From a virus: 24,184 nt of DNA. Below, piece after piece: positions 3,469 through 23,286 of this stretch. The notes beneath the pieces are model-generated. The model did no database searches and was not told the origin of the DNA. It was given only the letters and a program-made list of their open reading frames with translations. The DNA lies in IMG/VR virus record IMGVR_UViG_3300032516_000197, positions 1-24,184 of that record; one strand, given 5' to 3'. How positions within the stretch are numbered: position 1 is the first letter of the stretch; every line of letters starts with the position of its first letter. Position numbers and translations under genes: made by a program.

Positions 3469-4887
3469 CTATCCGAAACGGAATAACACAAAGTTGTTTG
3501 CACCTAAAGTACATACACATCTTTCAGACAAGAAGTTAACCTCCATTGCGTCTAAGTCAGATGTTTGAGCACCACCGGCAGAACCTGTAATCCACGTTTT
3601 GTATCTACGGTCTTCAGCTTCTGAAGCACGGTATCTAACGTGTAAGAAAGGTCTCTTTGCGTTTTTACCCATAATTTGGTCGTACACTGATGTAGAACCG
3701 GCAGGAACCATAAGTCCTGTGATTGTACCCGTAGCAGTAGCTGCAACGTTAGACAAACCACCTCTCATAGTTGGGTCGTTTAGATATTTCCAATCAGATT
3801 TGTAGAAATCGTAACCTCTACGGAATCCTGTGAAACCTAAGTTAAGAGCCATATCAACATCATTATCGAATAAACCAAAAGATGCAGATTGAGCAACACC
3901 ACCTGAAGTGTATCCATTTAATGTTGCCAACATATTGTCGATGTCAAAAGACAATCCACGATTAACAAAAACAACGTTTTCTTCGATAGCACCTTGCTTG
4001 TCTAAACGAGAAACAATAGAATCCCACTCATTCAAAGAAGTTGGAGAACCACCTCCCCAAACGTTACCTCTATTGTTTACAACATAGAAGATACCTTCAG
4101 ACCCCATCATACCTGCTGTTTTAGCGCCCGAACCGGTTGCGGCAGGAACTGCTTCAATCATAGAAGTTTCGATGTAATCTTCAAAACGCAAACGAGTTTC
4201 GTGCTCTGATTTTAAATACCACAAGTACCCTGTAGCACCGTTCTCAGTAGTAACTTCAACCCATCCGATTTGAGCCATATCAGAACCATTAACCGCATAT
4301 TTATCTTTCAAGATAATTGGGTTATTGCTGTAGATGTCATCTTCAGCTTCCAAAGAACCAACCATTCCGTTAGTTCCTTTTTTAAACTCAGAGCCGTAAA
4401 TAAATACAGTGCATTGAGTAGATACAGCAAATGCTTGTCCTGTTGCTTCGTAGTAAGCTACTGTGAAAGTAGTTGCTGAAGGAACTGCTGTAACAATTGC
4501 TTTGTTAAACACACCTGATGCGTTATTTTGAATCATCACAGTTTGACCTACTCTGATTGCAACGTAAGTAACGCCTGAATCAGCCACAGTGAAAGTAGCA
4601 GTATTTGCTGCTGCTGCCGCACCTGAAGTACAGTTTGTATACTTAATATGAAGACGACCTTGTTCTGCCCATTTGATTTGGTCAGAATTAGAAGGCATCT
4701 CTGCACCTACCATTCTCAAGAATGATGCGATGGTTCTATTACCGTAACGCTCAAATTCTTTTTCGTAAGTATCAGGAAGATACTGATTCAAAAAGTTGAA
4801 GTTGGTAATGTAGTTTGTCTGCAACGCTACTTGCTCAGCACTTGGCTGTAATGCAAAAGTAGGGTTTGATAATAATGTACCTGCCAT
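3469..4887 (-). CDS. Major capsid protein
   Basis: 472 residues, the size expected for a HK97-fold capsid subunit of this phage type. The N-terminus (TLLSNPTFALQPSAEQVALQ) is followed by a helical region with YLPDTYEKEFERYGNRTIAS and RMVGAEMPSNSDQIKWAEQG. Residues about 87-166 are a Thr/Ala/Val-rich beta insertion. Downstream are RLRFEDYIETSMIEAVPA, then NNRGNVWGGGSPTSLNEWD, SFDIDNMLATLNGYTSGG and a C-terminal region ending in CVCTLGANNFVLFRFG. It lies directly after the scaffold-like gene, with portal and terminase upstream, and ends at its own terminator. Base composition is clearly richer in G+C than most neighbours (29 of 60 in the line at 3541), as often seen in highly expressed genes. 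Function is inferred from order, length and recalled similarity. Confidence 0.8.
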   Translation of the reverse strand: MAGTLLSNPTFALQPSAEQVALQTNYITNFNFLNQYLPDTYEKEFERYGNRTIASFLRMVGAEMPSNSDQIKWAEQGRLHIKYTNCTSGAAAAANTATFTVADSGVTYVAIRVGQTVMIQNNASGVFNKAIVTAVPSATTFTVAYYEATGQAFAVSTQCTVFIYGSEFKKGTNGMVGSLEAEDDIYSNNPIILKDKYAVNGSDMAQIGWVEVTTENGATGYLWYLKSEHETRLRFEDYIETSMIEAVPAATGSGAKTAGMMGSEGIFYVVNNRGNVWGGGSPTSLNEWDSIVSRLDKQGAIEENVVFVNRGLSFDIDNMLATLNGYTSGGVAQSASFGLFDNDVDMALNLGFTGFRRGYDFYKSDWKYLNDPTMRGGLSNVAATATGTITGLMVPAGSTSVYDQIMGKNAKRPFLHVRYRASEAEDRRYKTWITGSAGGAQTSDLDAMEVNFLSERCVCTLGANNFVLFRFG

Positions 4888-4905: not shown

Positions 4906-6051
4906 TTATATTTTTTTCATACTACGGATTTTTAGACTCTTACCGGAATCAGGGTTTACCGCTTTTACCTGCATTCCTTCCATTGATTTTGTGATTTCAG
5001 GAGCTCTATTTGCGGACATTTGAATATTTTTAATGTTCTTCATAGTACCTTCAGTCGCATCTGCTTGTCCTTGTTCGTAAAAGAACTTTGCAAATTTCTC
5101 AGGATTCATAGCTACAGCTAATGACCTATGATAACCTGCCGCATCCTTAATTAAGCCCTGCTCATCTAAAAACTTATTTATAAAGTTTGCAGGTGTAGCT
5201 TGTGCCTTTTTAAGTTCATTAGCATCTCCGGGATTGAAAGCGATTCGCTTGTCATTAACATTGAACTCAAAACCTTTGAACTCTCCGTTAAATACCTCAT
5301 CAGTCTTTTGGTTAAACCAATTCCTTTTTCTTTCATTCTCTTCCTCATTAGTCTTCGCTTGCTTGGTATATTGCTTGTAGCTTTCATAAATTTCTCTCTC
5401 CTCATCAGAAATCAGTGGAGCACTTGACTCAAGTGGCACTTTGTATTGTTCTTTTTGAGCATTAAAAAATTTCTTTGCCTCAGCAACTGCCTTTTTTGTT
5501 GCAATCTTAACTCTTTTTATGTGTGATTCATCATCAATGTCTTCGTCATAACGATAATCATCCATTAAAGAGTCAATATCATCAGCATCAAGTCCTTCTT
5601 GAGTTGCTGATAAATATTGTTCAAGTAAACTTTCCGAGTCCATTGAGTCAAAATCTTTTTTAAGACTTAAAAAATCCTCAAATCCTCTTCCTGTTTCTTT
5701 TTTGTATTTCATATAAGCGGCAACATCTTCAGGTAAAGCCTCAGCTTCTTGCCTTTGAGATGTCAATTCATCTAATGAATTAATCTGCTTATTGTATCTT
5801 TTTCCAATATATGAAAGAACTTGCTCTTCATTTAATTCAACCTCTTGCCGTTGCTGTTGCTCTTGCTCTTGCTGTTGCTCCTGCTGTTGCTCTTGCTCTT
5901 GCTGTTGCTCCTGCTGTTGCTCTTGCTCTTGCTGCTGCCCCGGTATATTTACATTTTGAAATTGTTGCTCGTGTTTTTCAAGTAACTCTTGTTCTACTTG
6001 AGCAGTTCCTTTCTCTTCTGTACCATCTAATAATCTTACTTTAATTTCCAT
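4906..6051 (-). CDS. Probable capsid scaffolding protein
   Basis: 381 residues, strongly acidic and helical. Residues 39-69 are a low-complexity Gln/Glu tract built on the 10-residue unit EQEQQQEQQQ. After it come EVELNEEQVLSYIGKRYNKQ and long charged helices (about 90-260), then a C-terminal part with FINKFLDEQGLIKDAAGYHR and a basic tail ending in KSLKIRSMKKI. An acidic coiled-coil protein with a basic C-terminus placed between portal and capsid genes is the usual profile of a scaffolding protein, the short basic tail being the likely capsid contact. No protease motif was recognised. The leader carries the ATCAAATCAAATG start context and a TAGCTTTG box, so it may begin a capsid transcript. 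Confidence 0.6.
   Translation of the reverse strand: MEIKVRLLDGTEEKGTAQVEQELLEKHEQQFQNVNIPGQQQEQEQQQEQQQEQEQQQEQQQEQEQQQRQEVELNEEQVLSYIGKRYNKQINSLDELTSQRQEAEALPEDVAAYMKYKKETGRGFEDFLSLKKDFDSMDSESLLEQYLSATQEGLDADDIDSLMDDYRYDEDIDDESHIKRVKIATKKAVAEAKKFFNAQKEQYKVPLESSAPLISDEEREIYESYKQYTKQAKTNEEENERKRNWFNQKTDEVFNGEFKGFEFNVNDKRIAFNPGDANELKKAQATPANFINKFLDEQGLIKDAAGYHRSLAVAMNPEKFAKFFYEQGQADATEGTMKNIKNIQMSANRAPEITKSMEGMQVKAVNPDSGKSLKIRSMKKI
5845..5937 (-). repeat. 30-bp in-frame repeat encoding a Gln/Glu tract
   Basis: Just over three tandem copies of a 30-bp unit rich in TTGCTC and TTGCTG encode EQEQQQEQQQ-type units in residues 39-69 of the scaffold-like protein. Being in frame and a multiple of three, it can change length without breaking the gene. 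Confidence 0.8.
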
Positions 6052-6099: not shown

Positions 6100-8535
6100 T
6101 TAACGAGGCTCAAATTCAGCCAAATCAAAGCCATCTAAACTATCTTCATTTGATTCAAAATTCAATGGAGGAAGATTGTTTTTACGTTGGTCTATTAATT
6201 TAGATTGCTCTGTATTTTGTTGACTAATCCGCTTAGCTTTAGCATCTTCACGAGCCTGTTCACGACCGCCTAACGTCTCCATTTCCATACCGTGAAGTTT
6301 TTGATTATACATAAACTCTTCTGCCATTAAGTGAGATTTTAGTTCAGCTTCTACTTGAATTTTCCTAATAGTTAATTCAGTTTCCATCTGCATCAACTGA
6401 CTTTTAGTTTGAACTTCTGTCTGCATTTTTTGCATAGCCATTTGACCTGCCATTTCTTGAGACTTCAATTGCTGTTGAGCCTGCATAGCTTGTTGTTGCA
6501 TTTTCAGTTGGTCTTCACGCTCTTGCTTCTTAATTCGTTTCATTTTCAATAATTGATTAGCAAGTTTAAGATTTTTAATCTCACGAATATCAATAGCATC
6601 TTCAAGATTAATATCTCCTTTTTGTAAAGCCATTTGAACATTAGCTTCAAGTTGTGCTCTCTGCTCTTCATCAGGCGCAACTTCAATAAATATACCAAAG
6701 TCGTAAATATAAAGGTCTGCTATATCTCCTAAAATAGACACATTGTACCTGCCAATTTGATTAATAAACTCATCTTTAAAGTCAGAGTATTCTAATATAT
6801 CTCCAATTCTATAAGTTAATGCCTCTGCCATTGAGCGATATATATATAAACCTCCATCAAGTATATGTCGAGTTGCTGTATTTGAGTTTAAAGCTGCTAA
6901 CTTCTGTAATCCTACTAAAGAATTAGGGTCAGGAGTAGAACCATCTCGTGCTTCGTTAAGCCCGGTTACAGTTCTAATCATATCCATATAGTGATTATAA
7001 TTAGTGATAAGCATTTGAGTTTTACCTACACCTGTGTTAGAGCTTAATTGAGTAATAGGAACTTTAGCATTATTAAAATCTCCATCTTGAGTAAAACTTC
7101 TACCAATTACCGAACCTGTTTGGAAATAAAGTCTTAGAGCGTCTTCCGGGTTGTAAGCAGCGCCACTTCCTAAATCAACTTCATTAAGTCCATCAGCATC
7201 AATAAATACACCATCAGGAACAACTCGATTAATTACTTGTTGTAATTTTAAATGTGTAATTTGAATAAGGTCTGCAAACGGTATCATTCTACGAACTAAA
7301 GACTCTATAGCTCCTTTATACATTCTTGGGGCACAAGCTACATAATTTGGCAATGCGTGTTGAGAAGCAGACTTTGGCCGTACCATATTCTCAGACATTT
7401 TCCATTGTAAAAGAATATTAGTTCCCATTACCATAATACCTTCATACCATACGTCAATAGTTTTTTCTATTTTCTCAAAATTACCTTCTTCCATCATTTG
7501 TGCCGGAGGATTGAAAGTATCATCTTTAGGAATAACTCGTGAACCGCCATTCTCAAGAATTTTTTTCTTAAAAACTATTTTCTTTGTAGTTTTATAATTA
7601 AAGTACATCAATGTACAAGTATCTCTTGAAAATACACTATTTTCGTAGAATTGAGCCACATTAAAATAATCATACCAACTTTGACTATATTGAGTAATTT
7701 CCTGTAAGTCTTCTTTAGTAAGGCTTTGGTCAATTTTCATTAACTCACTAATTGGAAGAGTTTTAATTTCTCCCCAATAAAAACAATCTTTAAAGTGAGG
7801 GTCTTCAGTATAGCTATAAACAACATTTGCAGGGTCAACATAAGATATTTTAACTCCTGTTCCTTGAAGAAATTCGTGTTTAGCAATAGATATACCAAGT
7901 ACTGTAGCATCGTAATCTAATCTCCAACGAATGTCGTTATAATGATTCTCATCAAATATGGTGTTAATAGCTTCTTCTTCTGCAATCTCAATTGCGGGTT
8001 TATAATTAAGTTGCATAAACAAAGAAAGTTCTTCATCTGATTCAGGAAGTTTTTCAGGGTCCATTGTAAATGCATCAAAACCTGTGCTTTCTTTTATTTG
8101 ATTTAAAACAGGTTTAGCAATCATTTGCCCTTCAATCATATCCTGATACTTACTTCTTTTGGATTGAGACATAGCGTCTTGCGCGTATACCTTTACCTTA
8201 AACAATCTATCGGACATCCCATTAACAACAATATCAACAAACTTAGGAATAATAGGAACAGGTGTCCAATCCAAGTTCAAATAAGATAAATCTCCATCAA
8301 TAGCTAATTCATTCTTATACTTTGAAATCGACTGCTCCCCTCTTGCATATAGCCTTAGCCTATGAAATTCTCTCCATTGACCATAATATCTACAATTATT
8401 TCCATCCTTTCTGAACCATTCATATTGAATAGCTTGACCAACTTGTAATCCAAATTGTTGGGATGCTTTTTCCTTATCAGTAGCTAACTGACTTGGAAAG
8501 GCTGACGATGTAATATCTATTGTTACGTTTTTCAT
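6100..8535 (-). CDS. Portal protein
   Basis: 811 residues, the large portal size typical of crAss-like and related phages. The N-terminal region has YYGQWREFHRLRLYARGEQS, then IDGDLSYLNLDWTPVPIIPK and FVDIVVNGMSDRLFKVKVYA, a block I recall as characteristic of these portals. The centre contains PLPNYVACAPRMYKGAIESL-like text (ALPNYVACAPRMYKGAIES) and a clip/stem candidate region. From about residue 640 to 770 the protein is a long Gln/Met/Lys-rich helix, consistent with a crown or barrel at the portal C-terminus. The ATG overlaps the terminase stop in ATGA, so the two are translationally coupled. The portal dodecamer would form the packaging channel at one capsid vertex. Function is assigned from recalled sequence pattern and TerL adjacency. 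Confidence 0.85.
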   Translation of the reverse strand: MKNVTIDITSSAFPSQLATDKEKASQQFGLQVGQAIQYEWFRKDGNNCRYYGQWREFHRLRLYARGEQSISKYKNELAIDGDLSYLNLDWTPVPIIPKFVDIVVNGMSDRLFKVKVYAQDAMSQSKRSKYQDMIEGQMIAKPVLNQIKESTGFDAFTMDPEKLPESDEELSLFMQLNYKPAIEIAEEEAINTIFDENHYNDIRWRLDYDATVLGISIAKHEFLQGTGVKISYVDPANVVYSYTEDPHFKDCFYWGEIKTLPISELMKIDQSLTKEDLQEITQYSQSWYDYFNVAQFYENSVFSRDTCTLMYFNYKTTKKIVFKKKILENGGSRVIPKDDTFNPPAQMMEEGNFEKIEKTIDVWYEGIMVMGTNILLQWKMSENMVRPKSASQHALPNYVACAPRMYKGAIESLVRRMIPFADLIQITHLKLQQVINRVVPDGVFIDADGLNEVDLGSGAAYNPEDALRLYFQTGSVIGRSFTQDGDFNNAKVPITQLSSNTGVGKTQMLITNYNHYMDMIRTVTGLNEARDGSTPDPNSLVGLQKLAALNSNTATRHILDGGLYIYRSMAEALTYRIGDILEYSDFKDEFINQIGRYNVSILGDIADLYIYDFGIFIEVAPDEEQRAQLEANVQMALQKGDINLEDAIDIREIKNLKLANQLLKMKRIKKQEREDQLKMQQQAMQAQQQLKSQEMAGQMAMQKMQTEVQTKSQLMQMETELTIRKIQVEAELKSHLMAEEFMYNQKLHGMEMETLGGREQAREDAKAKRISQQNTEQSKLIDQRKNNLPPLNFESNEDSLDGFDLAEFEPR

Positions 8536-10826
8536 TTGATTAATTGACTTGTTGAACCATCATTAGAATACCTTGCGAAGTTAATACTTATTTTTGAATC
8601 TTTTTTCTCAGGCATATATAAATGCTTTTGGTTAGCCATAATAGCTAACCCCGAACTTATAGACGCATCAAATTTAGTTCTATCGTTTATATCAAACTTT
8701 GACCAATCTTCTAATGTTCTTGTAAAAGGCATAGTGCCTATATCTCCTCCATCTCTATAAGCTCCTGAAAAATCTATCCCAACATACTTTTCTATGTAAG
8801 ATTCAATTGCGGATGCGTGAGATTGTTTTACATCTTCTGATGAGTTGGGTATTCCTCCAAGCTCACGTTCAGTTTTTGATAATTTATTGTATTGTTTATC
8901 AGGCCTATTTAAACAATAGTTCCTATAACCTCTATTTTTAAAATGATAAAGTAATCGAGGTTTATTGTTCTCTATCAAAATTGGCATACCATAAAACACA
9001 CAGGCCATTAAAACTTCCTCAAAAAATATCTCAGCAGTCTGAGGTCTTGCTATGTATTCTAAAAAAAATTCATTTGAAGGAGCATCATCCATATTAAATT
9101 TAGTAAGTCCGTGAAGAGAACCGTTAGACCCCCTTCCCCCCACTACTGCGGATATATCGTAAGAGTCGCAACCAAAGGACCCAATGTGTTCATTTCCGGG
9201 ATATTTCATCCCATTTTTTGTATGTATATTGTTTTGTAAATGTTTTGCAGGAGTCCAACTAGTTAAAAATCTACCTCTTGAGTCAGGAGTAAAAACAACC
9301 TTGGTATCTTTAATACCATCTCTCCAATGCAAAGAACCACGAGTAAGATAATGTTCCTTTATCAAACTATCATTGTAGTCAATCTGTTGGTATATTTTTG
9401 TAAGATTAAACAAAGACTGCTTACTCTCATCTCTAAATGCGTGAGATTCTGTTCTTGGAAACTGTCTGTAAAACTCATTTAATGCATCAGCGTCATTTTT
9501 AAGTGAATCAACTTCATTCTCCCAATAGTCAATAGCACCCATACTAATTATTCCTCCATCAACTCCTGTAATTGGAACTTCAGGAGTCCTAAATACAGGC
9601 ATACCATATACATCTATAAAGCCTTCCATATTCCATTCCATAGGAATAAACAAGCCATACAGTCCACTTTTTGTTTGACCATTAGCGTTACGAGTTGTAA
9701 CCACTGAGTCTTCAAACATATCTTTATAATTCTGACCCCCTTTTGACAATGCATTTGAGGTTGACCCCATCATACATTTGCCGATAATCTTAGAGCCTAA
9801 TCTTAAACAAGTTTTAGTTACTCGCCAATTCTCTTTTATATTTTGAGGTTTAGTCCATTTAGCACTTTCATCGTGAGCTAATAACAGTAATTTTTCCCCA
9901 TCATAAGAGTTGTCATCTGTGTTTTTCCAATCTATTGATGTATCTAATCCTTCTATGACTTCATTTTCGGTGTCATACATATTTTTCTTTGTAATCTTAG
10001 ATGCCGGTACACGAAAAGACAATTCAGTTTTTGGCTTATCCATACCATCCATAATAGGTTTGAAGAAAAATGGAAGTCTGCTATTAATCGGAACTACTTT
10101 ATCAGTAAACATTTTCTTAGCATCAGCTCCCGTTTTTGATAGGATACCGACTCTCGCATCACGCGCAAGAGTTCCTACGTTTACACATTCAGATGAAGAC
10201 ATAAAAGAAAATCCTGAACGTCTAATCTTTAAGTACATCATACCGAAACTTCTTTTGTCAGCCCTACAAGCCTCCCAAAAAATCCAAAATATTCTATTTG
10301 CTTCTCTAAAATCAGGATACCCAATATCAATACTTGCCCACTGAAGATACATATAGTGAGAACCTGTTATGTATGTAGAAACCCCATTATTCATAAACCA
10401 CACCCCATTCTCTCTGCAATCAAATTCATTCTCAATATAATCAACCCATTTGTTTTTAAATTCAGATGGCATTTCATTCCATTGGAATATTGATTGTATT
10501 CTTGAAAGTTGCTTAGGTAGTGACTCTCTTTCCCAATGTTGTTCAGATTTTGTAGTACTTCTTTTTATGCAATCCTTTGGAGTTGGAGGAAGTGCAATAT
10601 AAAGACCTGTTATATTTATAATATCCCCTATCTGTCCTGTTTTAGATATTATAACAACATCGTATTGGTCATTATATCCATACACCCAAGACTTGTTACC
10701 ATTCTTTTTTGTAATGGCATTTTTGGGTATATAGTCTTTGACTACCGTATATAAGCTATTTAGACCTTCTTTCTGCAAACCCTTGTTTTGTATCAGTTTT
10801 AGTTCCTCCTTTTTCAGACATCTCAA
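8532..10826 (-). CDS. terL: Terminase large subunit (packaging ATPase/nuclease)
   Basis: 764 residues, the long form seen in crAss-like phages. Residues 200-208 (KIRRSGFSF) sit where Walker A is expected but lack the classical GK[ST]. Walker B is LLLLAHDE (313-320), with D319 and catalytic E320. The coupling motif is GSTSN at 354-358. The C-terminal nuclease half has GCDSYDIS (D554) and MPILIENN (E619), matching the acidic residues of the RNase H-like terminase nuclease. It precedes portal, with the ATGA overlap. The first ATG gives a 71-bp overlap with the upstream small gene; a TTG at 10778 (residue 17) would reduce this to 23 bp, so the start is uncertain. It would drive DNA into the prohead and cut concatemers. 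Confidence 0.9.
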   Translation of the reverse strand: MRCLKKEELKLIQNKGLQKEGLNSLYTVVKDYIPKNAITKKNGNKSWVYGYNDQYDVVIISKTGQIGDIINITGLYIALPPTPKDCIKRSTTKSEQHWERESLPKQLSRIQSIFQWNEMPSEFKNKWVDYIENEFDCRENGVWFMNNGVSTYITGSHYMYLQWASIDIGYPDFREANRIFWIFWEACRADKRSFGMMYLKIRRSGFSFMSSSECVNVGTLARDARVGILSKTGADAKKMFTDKVVPINSRLPFFFKPIMDGMDKPKTELSFRVPASKITKKNMYDTENEVIEGLDTSIDWKNTDDNSYDGEKLLLLAHDESAKWTKPQNIKENWRVTKTCLRLGSKIIGKCMMGSTSNALSKGGQNYKDMFEDSVVTTRNANGQTKSGLYGLFIPMEWNMEGFIDVYGMPVFRTPEVPITGVDGGIISMGAIDYWENEVDSLKNDADALNEFYRQFPRTESHAFRDESKQSLFNLTKIYQQIDYNDSLIKEHYLTRGSLHWRDGIKDTKVVFTPDSRGRFLTSWTPAKHLQNNIHTKNGMKYPGNEHIGSFGCDSYDISAVVGGRGSNGSLHGLTKFNMDDAPSNEFFLEYIARPQTAEIFFEEVLMACVFYGMPILIENNKPRLLYHFKNRGYRNYCLNRPDKQYNKLSKTERELGGIPNSSEDVKQSHASAIESYIEKYVGIDFSGAYRDGGDIGTMPFTRTLEDWSKFDINDRTKFDASISSGLAIMANQKHLYMPEKKDSKISINFARYSNDGSTSQLIK

Positions 10827-11044: not shown

Positions 11045-11611
11045 TTATCTATAAAACATTACATATACCATTCGCCCCTCTTTCCAACCTGTGTTTGGAT
11101 ATTTACTATGAAAGTAATTAGAAGGATACATAAGTGCACGATTGGGTCTATATCCTACTACAGAATGTAAATCCCAATTATCTAAATTGTTTGCCTCCTC
11201 TGAAAGAAATCTATTAGTTTCTTCATCAGAGGTATCTAAAGACATCTCATAACCTACATCTTTATGCCTCCAAAAAGCGGTCCCGTGCAACCCTTCTTTT
11301 GTAGATGGAGATATATATAACACAAGTGCTCTTTCGGGTCTAATATCGCCTACTTTTGAGTCTGCGTGGATTCTCCAATCAGTATCGAACTCTTCAGTTG
11401 CTACTCTAAAAAATCCTAATAAACATTCCCTTTTGGTTTTATCTATATCGCTTAATTTTTCAATAATAAAATTATCAAATTCTACGCTACTATATTGAAC
11501 CCAAAACTTTTTATCTCCAACCTCAACTTCTTGAAACTGATTACTTGCTAATCCATTATAAATAGAATTATAAATATCTTCATCCAAGAAATCATCTATA
11601 ATGTTTATCAT
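11045..11611 (-). CDS. 2-oxoglutarate/Fe(II)-dependent oxygenase
   Basis: 188 residues. The iron triad is visible: H82-x-D84 in WRIHADS and the distal H168 in SNYFHSKYPNTG, followed by R180 in EGRMVYVMFY, the usual 2-oxoglutarate anchor. The stretch HGTAFWRHKDVG between them fits the double-stranded beta-helix fold of prolyl-4-hydroxylase-like phage oxygenases. Reaction expected: hydroxylation coupled to decarboxylation of 2-oxoglutarate to succinate; the substrate cannot be read from the sequence (protein side chain or modified base are both possible). Its ATG overlaps the stop of the GroES-like gene in ATGA, and it lies just upstream of terL, so it is made with the late proteins and may modify a virion protein. 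Confidence 0.8.
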   Translation of the reverse strand: MINIIDDFLDEDIYNSIYNGLASNQFQEVEVGDKKFWVQYSSVEFDNFIIEKLSDIDKTKRECLLGFFRVATEEFDTDWRIHADSKVGDIRPERALVLYISPSTKEGLHGTAFWRHKDVGYEMSLDTSDEETNRFLSEEANNLDNWDLHSVVGYRPNRALMYPSNYFHSKYPNTGWKEGRMVYVMFYR

Positions 11612-12171
11612 AGCTTTATGGTTATTTGATGGTCATACATACGATATAACTTCTCTCCATCAACAGTAAATTCGTATTCACTATCGGGAGAAAAACAAAT
11701 ATAATCGCCTTCTTTTATGCCTTTACTTAAAAGGTACTCATTTGGATAAACCATCTGACCCATTAACGGCTCTTCTTTTATGAATTTTTTTATGTAATAA
11801 TCTACAGCAGAGATTGGTCTAACAAAGCAATACTTATCATAAGCATTCCAAGTAGAATCTTTTTTATACATAAAGAATTGGTCTGTTTCTATAAAGAATA
11901 AATCATCTTTAAAAAAACTTTTGCCGCTTTTTTGACGACCTCTCATATCATTATAATACTTAAAAGCATTGTGATGAACGAGAAGTGTGTCTCCTATTGA
12001 TATAGGACCGGTATAGCCTACGGGAAGCTCGATAACTTCTGCATATCTGTTAGAGAACTTATGGTCCTCTTCTGAAGTACTGACGATAAAATCAATTCCT
12101 CCTATTTTTTTTGTGTTATCGTATCGCTTTCCATTCATAGGCCTTACTATGAAATAGAATGGAGATTTCAT
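11608..12171 (-). CDS. Two-domain GroES-like (cpn10-fold) protein
   Basis: 187 residues. Residues about 3-103 read like a co-chaperonin: FYFIVRPMN (first strand), a flexible stretch IGGIDFIVSTSEEDHKFSNR at the mobile-loop position, YAEVIELP (the RGEV strand), ISIGDTLLVHHNAFKYY (the VGD-V strand) and FFIETDQFFMYKK (the closing strand). Residues about 114-187 repeat the pattern: YCFVRPI, GQMVY, GIKEGDYICFSPDSEYEF, GEKLYRMYDHQITIKL. So the protein looks like a tandem duplication of the GroES fold. It is distinct from the 85-aa canonical GroES at 21373-21630. Being inside the head operon (TAATG overlap upstream, ATGA overlap downstream), a role in capsid folding or as a structural beta-barrel is inferred. 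Related phage proteins have, as I recall, been labelled GroES-like. Confidence 0.65.
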   Translation of the reverse strand: MKSPFYFIVRPMNGKRYDNTKKIGGIDFIVSTSEEDHKFSNRYAEVIELPVGYTGPISIGDTLLVHHNAFKYYNDMRGRQKSGKSFFKDDLFFIETDQFFMYKKDSTWNAYDKYCFVRPISAVDYYIKKFIKEEPLMGQMVYPNEYLLSKGIKEGDYICFSPDSEYEFTVDGEKLYRMYDHQITIKL

Positions 12172-15902: not shown

Positions 15903-16310
15903 TTATTTACATTTAGCTTTACCGCTATTATTAGTGTAAATACATCTACCCTTGTCTCCAAGTGGATTTAATCTACTTAATAAACTTGGTCTATCCGTAT
16001 TAGCACTTTTGGTCTCTTTCATTTTACCACCGCCTTCAACTTCTGTAAATTTTACCTTGCTATCGTTTTTTACTTTTTTAGCATACTCGTCAACGGTTAA
16101 TCCTCGTCTTTCAGCTCCTTGTTTAAATTTTTCTGTCATTCTATTTGTTACATCTTGACTTATAGAATCTTTATATTGTTTAACTCTTTCCATTCCTCCC
16201 TTTTGTTTCAACTCAGCTATTTTTTTTGCTTTTTCAGGCTGAGACATTTGCTGCCAAGTTTTAGGGTCAGGAGTACTTGCTAACGGGGTGTCGGGTCTTT
16301 GAATTGCCAT
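15903..16310 (-). CDS. RPDTPLA-tagged basic hypothetical protein
   Basis: 135 residues, lysine-rich. The N-terminus MAIQRPDTPLASTPDPKTWQ carries the RPDTPLAxTP signature shared with three proteins at 20080-20911, about 4 kb away. The rest is helical and charged (SQPEKAKKIAELKQKGGMER, then AERRGLTVDEYAKKVKNDSK) and ends in NPLGDKGRCIYTNNSGKAKC-K with a Cys pair. No known enzyme motif. It lies 5 bases downstream of the candidate spanin gene and ends 53 bases before the next. The shared tag plus basic body suggests a virion-packaged or assembly-associated protein; that is inference. Confidence 0.65.
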   Translation of the reverse strand: MAIQRPDTPLASTPDPKTWQQMSQPEKAKKIAELKQKGGMERVKQYKDSISQDVTNRMTEKFKQGAERRGLTVDEYAKKVKNDSKVKFTEVEGGGKMKETKSANTDRPSLLSRLNPLGDKGRCIYTNNSGKAKCK

Positions 16311-20079: not shown

Positions 20080-20373
20080 TTACGTTGTTTTTATTTTAGT
20101 TCTATCTGCGAATGATGCTAATCCATAAAGTCTTGAACCTTCTCCTGCAATAGACTTTCTTCCTTTACTTCTTTCTATTCTTGCCGCATCAAGCTTTGCT
20201 TGAGTTTCATTTTTAGATGCCTGCCTTTCAGCGCTTCTTTTATTAATATCATCTATTATTGATTTTAAATTTGTAACAGGTGTAGTTGCATCAGGTGTTT
20301 CTGCCAATGGAGTATCAGGCCTTTTAACCGCATCAGCTTTTCTTTCTTCCTTTGTTTTTTTTACAATTCCCAT
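20080..20373 (-). CDS. RPDTPLA-tagged hypothetical protein (97 aa)
   Basis: 97 residues. RPDTPLAETP is at 18-27 after a basic lead (MGIVKKTKEERKADAVK). The body is helical and charged (LKSIIDDINKRSAERQASKN, then KLDAARIERSKGRKSIAGEG). No Cys, no membrane segment, no known domain. It is one of three adjacent proteins with the same signature. Six bases separate it from the upstream gene. Function unknown. Confidence 0.6.
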   Translation of the reverse strand: MGIVKKTKEERKADAVKRPDTPLAETPDATTPVTNLKSIIDDINKRSAERQASKNETQAKLDAARIERSKGRKSIAGEGSRLYGLASFADRTKIKTT

Positions 20374-20378
20374 AGTTT

Positions 20379-20570
20379 CTATTGTTGAGGTGTTTCAGGT
20401 GCAGTAGGCACGATTGCTTTGATTTTATCTATAGCACTGTTTGCAGTTTGCTCAAATTTTGTAGCAACTCTTTGCTGAGGCATACCTCCAATTTGTGTTG
20501 TAGGTTGTAAGCCTGAACTAACAGGTTGTGGTTCAGGCGTTGCCGCTAATGGAGTATCAGGTCTTTGCAT
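20379..20570 (-). CDS. RPDTPLA-tagged hypothetical protein (63 aa)
   Basis: 63 residues. RPDTPLAATP begins at residue 3 of the protein, directly after Met-Gln. It is followed by a Pro/Gln-rich linker (EPQPVSSGLQPTTQIGG) and one short amphipathic helix (KFEQTANSAIDKIKAIVP), ending TAPETPQQ. It looks like a tag plus disordered linker plus short helix. Two bases separate it from the upstream gene. Function unknown. Confidence 0.55.
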   Translation of the reverse strand: MQRPDTPLAATPEPQPVSSGLQPTTQIGGMPQQRVATKFEQTANSAIDKIKAIVPTAPETPQQ

Positions 20571-20572
20571 TG

Positions 20573-20911
20573 TTATTTATTTTTTTTAAAAAGATTTATT
20601 ATTTTAGGACCTAAATCATTTCTTCTTGTAGCATTATAAAGTCTTTCGTCTCTATTCTCATCAGTAATTGGTGGAGGAGTAGCCGCTAATGGTGTATCAG
20701 GTCTAAGAACTTTTTTACCTTGTGATTCACGATTAAGTTTGCTTTCTGACTTCATTATAAACTCATCAGCCTGCGCCTTTCTTTTGTTTAGAGACTCCTT
20801 TCTATTCTCAGCCCTATCTTCCATCCTGTTAGCAACTTTTTTTGCTCTTTCAGGATTTGTTTCGGCTATTCTGCCAATTCTTTTATATTGACCGGGTCTT
20901 AATTCTTCCAT
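20573..20911 (-). CDS. RPDTPLA-containing basic protein, first gene of the late leftward operon
   Basis: 112 residues, Arg/Lys/Glu-rich. Residues 1-65 are a charged helix region (ELRPGQYKRIGRIAETNPER, then KKVANRMEDRAENRKESLNK). RPDTPLAATP is at 69-78, followed by a short C-terminal part ending LGPKIINLFKKNK. Here the signature is internal instead of N-terminal. It is the first minus-strand gene after the divergent promoter at 20931-20974 and so likely begins the transcript that continues into the lysis and fibre genes. Function unknown. Confidence 0.65.
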   Translation of the reverse strand: MEELRPGQYKRIGRIAETNPERAKKVANRMEDRAENRKESLNKRKAQADEFIMKSESKLNRESQGKKVLRPDTPLAATPPPITDENRDERLYNATRRNDLGPKIINLFKKNK

Positions 20912-20930: not shown

Positions 20931-20974
20931 TAACTTTGTACAAATGTATAAAAAAAAAATTAAATGAAATCAAA
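20931..20974. promoter_or_regulatory. Divergent promoters around a TTTGTACAAA palindrome
   Basis: On the minus strand TTTG (20974-20971), a 22-base spacer and TACATTTG (20948-20941) match the Bacteroidota -33/-7 pattern, 30 bases before the ATG at 20911. On the plus strand TAACTTTG (20931-20938) is a -7 box 25 bases before the ATG at 20964, with no clear -33. The two -7 boxes meet in the perfect 10-bp palindrome TTTGTACAAA (20935-20944), so RNA polymerase could load only one way at a time, and the palindrome could be an operator. Confidence 0.55.
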
Positions 20975-21407
20975 TCAAGATGATTACCTAAAATATTGGA
21001 GAGTCATTCGCCAATTCGCAAAAATTAAATACGAACTAACTCAGGCTGACTTAGATATGCTATTGTTCTTATACTCTGAAAAGTATTTTGGAAAAGATAA
21101 GTTTGAAGAGTTTGACAGTCTTTTAGGTTGGGATGTAACTCGTTTCTTCAGACTTCAAAAAGATGGGTGGATTGTAAAGTTTAGAAATAGAGTTGGCAAT
21201 AGAAAGGCTCTATACCAATTGACAGTCAAATCCACGAGAATGATTCAATCACTTTATAGAAAACTAAGCGGGGAAGAAATCCCCGTTAGTAATTCTAATA
21301 ATAAAATGTTCTTAAAGAACGTATCATATTCAGACAAAGTCTATCGCGATATGATTATCGAAATGAACAAAGTTATAAAACAACAACGACATCATTCTCG
21401 CGAATAA
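20964..21407 (+). CDS. Putative winged-helix transcriptional regulator
   Basis: 147 residues, the only plus-strand gene in the window. Residues about 10-45 give two helices (YWRVIRQFAKIKYELTQADL, then DMLLFLYSEKYFG), residues 50-68 a helix-turn-helix-like segment (FDSLLGWDVTRFFRLQKDGW), and residues 68-87 a basic wing with strands (VKFRNRVGNRKALYQLTVKS). This is the layout of a MarR-like winged helix. The C-terminal 50 residues are basic and helical. It is divergent from the late genes and its 3' end overlaps groES by 35 bases in the opposite direction. A role in controlling the late promoter is inferred from position. Confidence 0.55.
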   Translation: MKSNQDDYLKYWRVIRQFAKIKYELTQADLDMLLFLYSEKYFGKDKFEEFDSLLGWDVTRFFRLQKDGWIVKFRNRVGNRKALYQLTVKSTRMIQSLYRKLSGEEIPVSNSNNKMFLKNVSYSDKVYRDMIIEMNKVIKQQRHHSRE

Positions 21408-21630
21408 TTGTGTATTGCTTATCATCAATCAGCATTGTAAATCCGTGCGCCTTATCGTAGTAGATGTCATCATCTTTTTTGATATGCGGTACATCAGTAC
21501 CGCTTTCTACTACTAAGCCACGCTTGTAACGCATCTGATTCATATCTTCTCCCGATAGAAACAATCCTGATTCAGTTTTTAACTCTTCATCAATGGTCTT
21601 GATGACGATGTATTTACCAATTGGTTTCAT
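21373..21630 (-). CDS. groES: Phage co-chaperonin GroES
   Basis: 85 residues, about 10 shorter than bacterial GroES. It begins KPIGKYIVIKTIDEE, then KTESGLFLSGEDMNQMRYKR: residues 16-34 correspond to the mobile loop, with the hydrophobic tripeptide L-F-L (23-25) in place of I-V-L, which docks on GroEL. Then RGLVVESGTDVPHIKKDDDI (the V-x-x-G-D region) and FTMLIDDKQYTIIRENDVVV (closing strands). The roof loop is short. It follows groEL by 11 bases; in bacteria the order is usually groES first. Would cap the phage or host GroEL ring during folding of capsid proteins, by analogy with T4 gp31. Confidence 0.85.
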   Translation of the reverse strand: MKPIGKYIVIKTIDEELKTESGLFLSGEDMNQMRYKRGLVVESGTDVPHIKKDDDIYYDKAHGFTMLIDDKQYTIIRENDVVVVL

Positions 21631-21641
21631 AGTTTTTAGTT

Positions 21642-23252
21642 TTAAGATTGTTCATAGCTACGCGCTAATGTAATTATTGCATCGGTGCTCAAAATTGTCA
21701 CAGCTACACTCACAGCATTTTGTAATGCACTTCGCGTTACTTTCAATGGGTCAATTACTCCCATCTTAATCAAGTCTCCATACTCTCTTGTCTTCAAGTT
21801 GTATCCTTGACCTTCAGCAATACCATCTTTGTAAATATCTTCAGCTTTCAATCCTGCGTTTGCAAGTATCTGTAAGAACGGAGCCATAAGTGCTGCCTTC
21901 AAAATCATCATAGCTGCATTATACTCAGGACTTTTATCCTCATCTATAGCCAAAGCCGCTGACTCTTCAAGTAAAGCTTTCCCTGCGCCCGGAAGAATCC
22001 CCTCTTCAAGTGCTGAACGTACCGCGCAAACAGCATCATCAACTCTGTCGTACAACTCTTTCTGCTCCAAGTCTGTCTGTCCACCCACAAAAATAACCCC
22101 AATTCCACCTGTTAATGAAGCAATTCTCTCCAATAAATGGTCCTTTTCGTGCTTCTTTGTTGCGTTTTTATGCGAATCCCATAGCTGACTTACCCTCTCA
22201 TCAATAGTTTTTTGGTCTAATTTCAAGTCTGACCTGACAATAACAGTCTTATCTTTACTTACAATTACCTTAGCTGCGTGTCCAAGGTCTTCATAATTAA
22301 TGATACTCAAGTCATCTCCTGTCTTTTCGCTGAAGTATGTAGCGCCAACACTAATAGCAATGTCTTGCATTAACTCGTGTTGCTTATATCCAAATGCCGG
22401 AGGCGCAACTGCGCATACTTTGATAAGTCCTTTTACAACATTAGCTGCCAAACTGTTAATCAAGTTCTGATTGCACGGAGATATAATTAATAACTTCTTA
22501 CCTTGTTGTACAATTGGTCTAAACACTTCCTCAATCTGAAGAACATTTGTAATCTCCATATCAGCAACCATAACCATAGCATCCTCAAATACGCACTCAT
22601 CTTTCTTTTGGTCATTGATAAATATTGGACTCAAGTACCCTCTGTCAAATTTCAACCCCATTGTGGTCTCAGCATAGGTCTCATCGTTCTGACTCTTCTC
22701 CACCGTAACAATACCTGTCTTGCCGACATCTTTGTATACCTCTGAGATAATCTTCCCAATCTCCCTGTCGTTATTTGCCGATATACTCGCTACATCTGTA
22801 AGCATTGTACTTGTAACTCTCTTGCTACGTCTTCGTAACTTGTCCACCACCTTGTCGCTTATCTCCACCATACTTCTCAGAACCTCTGTCCGGTTCAATC
22901 CTTCAGTGATATGCTCAAGTCCACTCAATACCAATCCTTCAGTGAGGACAATGGCAGTTGTCGTACCATCTCCTGCCGAAGTAGCAGTCTTCTCAGCGGC
23001 TTCCTTCATCATCTTAACCGCAAGGTTCTCCGAAGGGTCCAATAAATCAATTGATTTGGCAACAGTAACTCCATCTTTGGTAACTGTGATACCGTGAGTA
23101 TGGTTTGGAGATTCAATAAGTACAGGATTACCTCCCGGACCTAATGTACTTTTTACAGCTTTGGACATTTTCCTAACGCCACTTACTAATTTTCCTCTTC
23201 CTGCCGCCCCAAACTCTAAGTTTTTTGGGGAATAACCTTGATTTTCTAACAT
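21642..23252 (-). CDS. groEL: Phage chaperonin GroEL (Hsp60)
   Basis: 536 residues, full-length three-domain layout. ATPase residues are kept: D60 (TKDGVTVAKSI), D95 (AGDGTTTA), D406 (YDRVDDAVCAVRSALEEG) and D501 (GVIDPLKVTRSAL). Changes: TLGPKG is TLGPGG (no Lys at 40), and the GGG loop is PGAG (421-424). The apical substrate/GroES site is partly kept (RGYLSPIFIN; the usual Tyr is Ile). The C-terminal GGM tail is missing; it ends ITLARSYEQS. Paired with groES. Leader ATCAAATCAAATG and a TATATTTG box lie upstream. Two 60-base lines in the 5' half have 50-53% G+C, above most neighbours. Likely folds phage structural proteins in place of or beside the host machine. Confidence 0.95.
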   Translation of the reverse strand: MLENQGYSPKNLEFGAAGRGKLVSGVRKMSKAVKSTLGPGGNPVLIESPNHTHGITVTKDGVTVAKSIDLLDPSENLAVKMMKEAAEKTATSAGDGTTTAIVLTEGLVLSGLEHITEGLNRTEVLRSMVEISDKVVDKLRRRSKRVTSTMLTDVASISANNDREIGKIISEVYKDVGKTGIVTVEKSQNDETYAETTMGLKFDRGYLSPIFINDQKKDECVFEDAMVMVADMEITNVLQIEEVFRPIVQQGKKLLIISPCNQNLINSLAANVVKGLIKVCAVAPPAFGYKQHELMQDIAISVGATYFSEKTGDDLSIINYEDLGHAAKVIVSKDKTVIVRSDLKLDQKTIDERVSQLWDSHKNATKKHEKDHLLERIASLTGGIGVIFVGGQTDLEQKELYDRVDDAVCAVRSALEEGILPGAGKALLEESAALAIDEDKSPEYNAAMMILKAALMAPFLQILANAGLKAEDIYKDGIAEGQGYNLKTREYGDLIKMGVIDPLKVTRSALQNAVSVAVTILSTDAIITLARSYEQS

Positions 23253-23278: not shown

Positions 23279-23286
23279 CAAATATA
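23279..23286 (-). promoter_or_regulatory. Candidate groEL -7 promoter box (TATATTTG)
   Basis: The minus strand TATATTTG lies 26 bases upstream of the groEL ATG and matches TAnnTTTG. TTTG occurs further upstream at 29 bases spacing, longer than usual, so only the -7 element is supported. Confidence 0.45.

Follow-up and report, generated by a model that had tools for sequence, protein, structure and literature searches.

The window analysed here, a single IMG/VR virus contig of 24,184 bp known from its sequence alone, encodes a terminase, a portal, virion structural proteins, a tail-spike-like protein, a holin, and an M15 peptidase according to Pfam and PHROGs. This gene content identifies the contig as part of a tailed phage, and the relatives of its terminase, which belong to Flavobacterium, Cellulophaga, Tenacibaculum, Maribacter, and Azobacteroides phages, suggest a host from the Bacteroidota. 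The minus strand carries groEL (21642 to 23252), which encodes a 536-aa group I chaperonin subunit (Pfam Cpn60_TCP1, E=1.2e-57; PHROG 5725 "chaperonin groEL", E=2e-133) and is followed 11 bp behind by groES (21373 to 21630), which encodes an 85-aa co-chaperonin (Pfam Cpn10, E=1.7e-12). Both reading frames are open and intact. GroEL residues 30 to 528 align to positions 2 to 487 of the 490 positions of the Cpn60_TCP1 model, which is full-length group I chaperonin homology, and the groES product matched bacterial GroES in a profile comparison with 97.9% probability (E=5e-13). Chance is excluded as an explanation of the Pfam and PHROG matches. The preliminary description of this DNA was thus right in reporting both genes as present and adjacent, with groEL first. 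Its characterization of the GroES as short did not hold, because the sampled Bacteroidota GroES proteins comprise 88 to 96 aa and the difference amounts to a few residues only; an unusually short GroES was therefore rejected.

A convergent gene on the plus strand (20964 to 21407, 147 aa; PHROG 17028, E=5e-12) shares 35 bp with the 3′ end of groES and sets groEL and groES apart from the remaining minus-strand genes. It showed weak matches to winged-helix regulators, and its counterpart at the same place in phage ctfjg026 is named "repressor protein". The genes on the minus strand include that of the terminase large subunit (8532 to 10826; PHROG 6681, E=8e-182) and a virion structural protein gene (3469 to 4887; PHROG 13704 "virion structural protein", E=3e-104), whose product is a candidate client of the chaperonin. 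The protein encoded beside the latter (4906 to 6051, minus strand) carries a long Gln/Glu repeat (QEQQQ) near its N terminus and is possibly of the scaffold type. The peptide RPDTPLAxTP occurs in four separate small proteins (16281 to 16298, 20305 to 20322, 20547 to 20564, and 20687 to 20704, all minus strand), and RPDTP[LI] was found in 43 of 85 related loci with up to five copies per locus and was absent from the 80 bacterial control loci; it is perhaps a targeting or cleavage signal. Near the contig end (24035 to 24150) lies a tandem array of the 9-mer TTGGTTCCC, drifting into TTGGTTGGTTCCCG units, which may explain why the assembly stopped there.

For the comparisons described below, 80 related IMG/VR loci were fetched, the phage family was represented by 81 to 82 aligned sequences depending on the position, and 82 bacterial sequences served as the comparison set. 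In all 80 relatives groES was located downstream of groEL on the same strand, and the same order is present in the annotated phages ctfjg026 and elemo, whereas groES preceded groEL in 78 of 79 bacterial loci containing both genes; in the odd locus (L153) a second groEL paralogue had been picked. The phages phi38:1 and immuto have groES first. Viral chaperonin gene order reportedly follows GroEL phylogeny (Marine et al. 2017). Strict adjacency is not typical of the relatives, as the distance between the two genes was 40 bp or less in only 16 of 80 and exceeded 300 bp in 38, mostly owing to small inserted genes. The gap is an insertion hot spot in the relatives (e.g., L041:2582-2830, L013:6941-7210, and L062:7366-7635), and that of the window holds no such gene. 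Six of the 80 relatives carry inside the gap a gene for a Tad2-like Thoeris anti-defence protein (PF11195 in Pfam, E about 1e-23), and a search for the Tad2-like motif elsewhere on the plus strand revealed no further relative locus with one. Four loci (L003, L008, L025, and L062) encode a weakly matching, below-cut-off Acb2/Tad1-like protein, and HNH and homing-type endonucleases are also among the gap genes.

The window GroEL is a member of a large family of aquatic Bacteroidota phages, for which a single query recovered at least 446 related IMG/VR loci. The statement that few phages carry a full GroEL is correct as a fraction (a GroEL match was present in 266 of 50,697 phage records) but does not apply to this aquatic lineage, in which the gene is common. 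An earlier study had described GroEL from 36 marine genomes that belong to the phi38:1 group (PMC5332604), and close annotated relatives of the chaperonin pair exist, so that it cannot be taken as rare. One record, L084 (CAKLQH020000021.1, "Acinetobacter phage MD-2021a"), was rejected as a source of a phage GroEL because its groESL genes are flanked by glpD, pckG, and acrB, surroundings that look like a bacterial chromosome; it was treated as a bacterial sequence in the comparisons.

In pairs of relatives the dN/dS ratio of groEL was 0.03 to 0.15, and that of groES was likewise low. The phage family formed a single clade on a long branch with 100/100 support, and the nearest bacterial GroELs, among the matches listed, were only ~40% identical. 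A decayed host copy, the possibility raised in the preliminary description, was rejected on these three grounds. Likewise, the idea of a host groESL copy that was captured recently, evolves under relaxed selection, and is useless to the phage could draw on the tree uniting the phage family with Bacteroidota, which was not rejected (AU p=0.34); against the low dN/dS, the sequence distance, the separate clade, and the retention of the gene in hundreds of contigs, we regard it as next to impossible. The phylogeny against Bacteroidota suggested earlier separated the phage clade clearly but left its place among the bacterial GroELs, including a Bacteroidota origin, neither shown nor rejected. A quick tree including other phages was unreliable because of very long branches. 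The GroEL of phi38:1 was seen by mass spectrometry in infected cells (PMC13288928). In summary, the pair is authentic, owned by the phage, and under selection, with EL-before-ES order in all 80 fetched relatives, and it is of a kind already known in related viruses; the earlier interpretation stands in this respect, but it overstated rarity and placed too much emphasis on the ATP pocket.

A Bacteroidota-type -7 promoter box, TATATTTG, is located at 23279 to 23286 on the minus strand, 34 bp upstream of the groEL ATG. It conforms to TAnnTTTG, the sigma-A consensus of flavobacteria (PMC9723704). Of the 80 relatives, 76 had this motif in the 120 bp that precede groEL, versus 9.7% of random windows. 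Its commonest form there, again TATATTTG, was positioned at -30 to -37 from the ATG in 57 of 80, most often at a distance of 32 to 35 bp. Across the whole window it was mildly enriched (48 vs 36.6). As the motif precedes groEL regularly but was found upstream of groES in only 5 of 61 cases, the pair probably forms a single transcription unit with a promoter motif of the Bacteroidota type, which would be read by the host polymerase. Such a host-type motif could also mean that groEL and groES are early genes with a non-structural client.

The residue readings on which the ATP pocket had been called changed proved correct by alignment: the window GroEL has TLGPGG for TLGPKG (E. coli K34 to G) and PGAG for (A/P)GGG (G415A), lacks the GGM tail, and contains all catalytic aspartates (D52, D87, D398, and D495). 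In the phage family D87 (GDGTTT), D398, and D495 were conserved in 82 of 82 sequences and D52 in all 81 covering that position, and the mean entropy of the ATP-site positions was 0.03 bits. The exchange G415A is fixed (81 of 82) and accompanied by A383G (82 of 82) and A480L (78 of 82). Position 34 varies within the family (G in 41, S in 30, N in 7, and A in 2 sequences) and is not invariant in bacteria either (K in 73 of 82, another residue in 9), for which reason K34G was rejected as a signature. The GGM tail was absent from all 82 phage sequences and present in 76 of 82 bacterial sequences; a GGM-type tail is thus also missing from 6 bacterial ones. We take the loop bearing G415A in the window to be equivalent to a nucleotide-contacting loop of the phage EL chaperonin. 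In the EL structure, that loop touches ATP (PMC7185714). Of the claim of a changed pocket, the fixed G415A exchange remains, but the pocket is otherwise nearly intact and its change appears modest on the residues compared; larger changes were found in the inter-ring interface and in the apical groove.

Loss of the inter-ring residues appears to be the stronger departure from bacterial GroEL. In the phage family K105 was kept in 1, A109 in 2, and R452, E461, and V464 in none of 81 sequences, versus 67 to 80 of 81 in bacteria. The four SR1 positions (452, 461, 463, and 464) are L, K, E, and D in the window, and position 109 is E. The entropy of 14 inter-ring positions, a list drawn from the literature plus general knowledge of GroEL, was 1.59 bits in the family compared to 0.78 (sd 0.20) at equatorial positions matched by bacterial entropy, and none of 10,000 matched controls reached this value; as such positions are exposed, the test speaks for relaxed constraint and not for a particular ring state. 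In E. coli GroEL, the exchanges R452E/E461A/S463A/V464A cause dissociation of the rings (PMC2741606), and the bridges K105-D435 and E461-R452 are absent from mitochondrial Hsp60, which occurs mostly as a single ring (PMC5575113). Because the inter-ring contacts are lost, a single ring or separating rings are probable. The residues at the interface argue against the normal 14-mer assumed in the preliminary description (GroEL14-GroES7) and suggest that this chaperonin, which has its own lid, is single-ringed or separates its rings.

A double ring with a remodelled interface is also conceivable. The protein could be an ordinary but drifted GroEL14-GroES7 whose rings pair by other contacts and which does the job of the host GroE for phage proteins, merely in larger supply. 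Such an assembly is consistent with the conservation of all catalytic residues plus R197, D155, R395, and R501 and with the subunit fold: the AlphaFold subunit model (pLDDT 82) matched GroES-bound GroEL subunits in Foldseek with TM 0.87 to 0.88 over 526 to 531 columns and apo GroEL with about 0.6. Moreover, the GroEL of phage EL is a double ring that uses other contacts (PMC7185714), and E. coli GroEL with the single mutation E461K still crystallises as 14 chains (2eu1). On the other hand, the inter-ring positions are far more variable than the matched equatorial ones, as expected if ring contact was lost, and the pairs D464-D464 and E109-E109 would be opposed at the places that V and A occupy in E. 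coli (pairs according to PMC2741606). We therefore consider an ordinary double ring rather unlikely.

The apical groove, the conserved hydrophobic site for GroES and substrate, was compared at positions Y199, Y203, F204, L234, L237, L259, V263, and V264. The phage family kept Y199 and F204, has M, L, or I at position 203, and shows the exchanges L234E (79 of 82), V263A (79 of 82), and V264A (82 of 82). Positions 234 and 264 are two of three residues called essential for GroES (PMC12696368), and in the E. coli protein an L234E exchange should impair the binding of GroES. The mobile loop of the phage GroES is kept, including its hydrophobic tripeptide; it reads G-L-F-L in the window (residues 22 to 25) and G-[LIM]-[IFVL]-L in the family, with G22 and L25 present in 82 of 82 sequences. 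From this conservation alone we assume that the phage GroES makes productive lid contact with the phage GroEL. For an engineered single-ring E. coli GroEL, cycling was shown to need weakened GroES binding (PMC5575113), and a remodelled groove would be consistent with a single ring carrying a loosened lid.

A third chaperonin gene, missed in the preliminary description, is located upstream of the terminase gene (11608 to 12171, minus strand) and encodes a 187-aa Cpn10-type protein (PHROG 13932 "co-chaperonin GroES", E=7e-24). We found it in 21 of the 24 long family contigs, and the terminase gene is its constant neighbour, following it in all 76 loci with enough sequence; the same adjacency was found for the genes of this type in elemo, phi38:1, phi18:3, and Panino. 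A "chaperonin cpn10" is listed among the core proteins of Pervagoviridae (PMC8776804). When diverse homologues were included, the C-terminal half matched bacterial GroES in a profile comparison with 97.4% (E=1e-11), and in the homologues from phi18:3 and phi38:1 this half was above the Pfam Cpn10 cut-off; a Pfam search with the window's own 187-aa protein gave no match. Sequence profiles did not identify the N-terminal half as Cpn10 with significance (12%). The structural model (pLDDT 75, with low values at residues 18 to 38 and 74 to 83) aligned best over its whole length with the tandem Cpn20 from Chlamydomonas (7ekq_R; 157 residues, Z 10.0, rmsd 5.5). The protein has one well-supported Cpn10 domain and probably a second one in a Cpn20-like arrangement; the tandem layout is rated as probable and no firmer because the model supports the second domain and the profiles do not. 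According to a review (PMC5780408), tandem Cpn10 proteins (Cpn20) are chloroplast-specific, so that a truly tandem 187-aa protein would represent the Cpn20 layout outside plastids. In the whole phi18:3 record GroES and a homologue of the 187-aa protein were present, but a search for GroEL found none, which means that the phi18:3 co-chaperonin must use the host GroEL or act without one. A tandem Cpn10 may explain why a co-chaperonin is kept beside the terminase in flavobacterial phages, even in phi18:3.

In an alternative reading, GroEL and GroES would do an early or host-directed job, for example by maintaining replication or host proteins or by assisting at low temperature, and head assembly would be left to the Cpn10-type protein beside the terminase. 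The host type of the groEL promoter motif, the convergent gene between groEL and the structural genes, and the link of the 187-aa gene to the terminase would fit such a division, as would the location of groEL among exonuclease genes in phi38:1 and behind the DNA polymerase gene in immuto. However, phi38:1 GroEL was found together with the capsid protein in free-virion samples (PMC13288928), and in the classical case of GroEL working with a phage lid, the client is a capsid protein (gp23 of T4, with gp31 as the lid; PMC5780408). An early or host-directed role thus appears distinctly unlikely to us, and the most likely client of the phage chaperonin is the capsid or another head protein; the preliminary description had proposed the capsid or fibre, which stand as candidates.

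Based on these data, we slightly favour a model in which the phage has its own chaperonin operon with a capsid or head client, its own lid, and single or separating rings. A podovirus-like phage of a Bacteroidota host would carry a group I chaperonin operon of its own, from which the host RNA polymerase would transcribe groEL and then groES starting at one Bacteroidota-type promoter. Seven GroEL subunits would assemble into a ring, bind ATP through the usual catalytic residues, and take in an unfolded phage protein for folding; this client would most likely be the capsid protein or some other abundant protein of the head. The phage's own GroES would cap this ring by means of its retained mobile loop, although the groove it meets is altered. 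The machine would probably operate with one ring, or with rings that come apart in the course of the cycle, and the changes in the groove may bring about the weaker hold on the lid that a single ring requires. The sequence itself shows the genes and their order, the selection on them, the conserved ATP residues, the missing inter-ring residues, the exchanges in the groove, and the promoter motif, from which ring state, pairing with the lid, client, and folding activity are inferred. A more far-reaching proposal, that widespread Bacteroidota phages combine a single-ring or ring-separating chaperonin having its own detachable, groove-loosened lid with a tandem Cpn20-like co-chaperonin for head or packaging proteins, is tentative and in our estimate has somewhat less than an even chance of being correct. 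Two features seem noteworthy to us: inter-ring residues have disappeared from a chaperonin whose lid gene is retained, and a Cpn10-type protein is linked to the terminase. Genomes and viromes have already revealed GroEL-GroES pairs in phages, whereas the phage chaperonins with biochemical data in the literature considered here, those of EL, OBP, and AR9, have no lid. The family described here would offer a natural case in which to ask whether a chaperonin that depends on GroES is able to cycle with one ring only. Engineered E. coli mutants and mtHsp60 have served to address this question so far, and the cultured relatives elemo, phi38:1, and Panino make it testable.

One of the closest annotated phages is syntenic with the window: ctfjg026, an uncultured podovirus with a complete circular genome (GenBank MW202828, 60,850 bp), shares the order groEL before groES, the convergent neighbour, and the 187-aa gene, annotated there as hypothetical. 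Its terminase is 77% and its GroEL 57% identical to that of the window, but G415 is not changed to A in the ctfjg026 protein. The cultured Flavobacterium phages elemo (Elemovirus) likewise have groEL before groES on one strand and a Cpn10-type protein ("chaperonin cpn10") directly before the terminase. Unlike in the window, however, their groEL-groES pair is located on the strand opposite to the head genes, and their GroEL, 35% identical to that of the window, has TMGYRG where the window has TLGPGG. The Cellulophaga phage phi38:1 (Pervagoviridae) has genes for GroEL and Cpn10 and, preceding a terminase-like gene, one for a 194-aa homologue of the 187-aa protein, but its groES precedes groEL with one gene in between. 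For the 187-aa protein, the best whole-length structural match, chloroplast Cpn20 (PDB 7ekq chain R), shows only 15% sequence identity.

With the phage chaperonins studied in the laboratory, EL gp146, OBP gp246, and AR9 gp228, the window GroEL has in common that it is a phage GroEL-like ATPase. The chaperonins of OBP and AR9 are single rings and that of EL separates its rings (PMC9598537, PMC5934643). These three proteins are much more distant (AR9 23% identical) and work in giant phages without a co-chaperonin, whereas the phage described here has its own GroES, conserved in 80 of 80 loci. Mitochondrial Hsp60-Hsp10 is a group I chaperonin that, like the proposed machine, has a lid and lacks the bridges between the rings; its Hsp60 is about 36% identical to the window GroEL by structure alignment, and the parallel lies in the ring-contact residues only.
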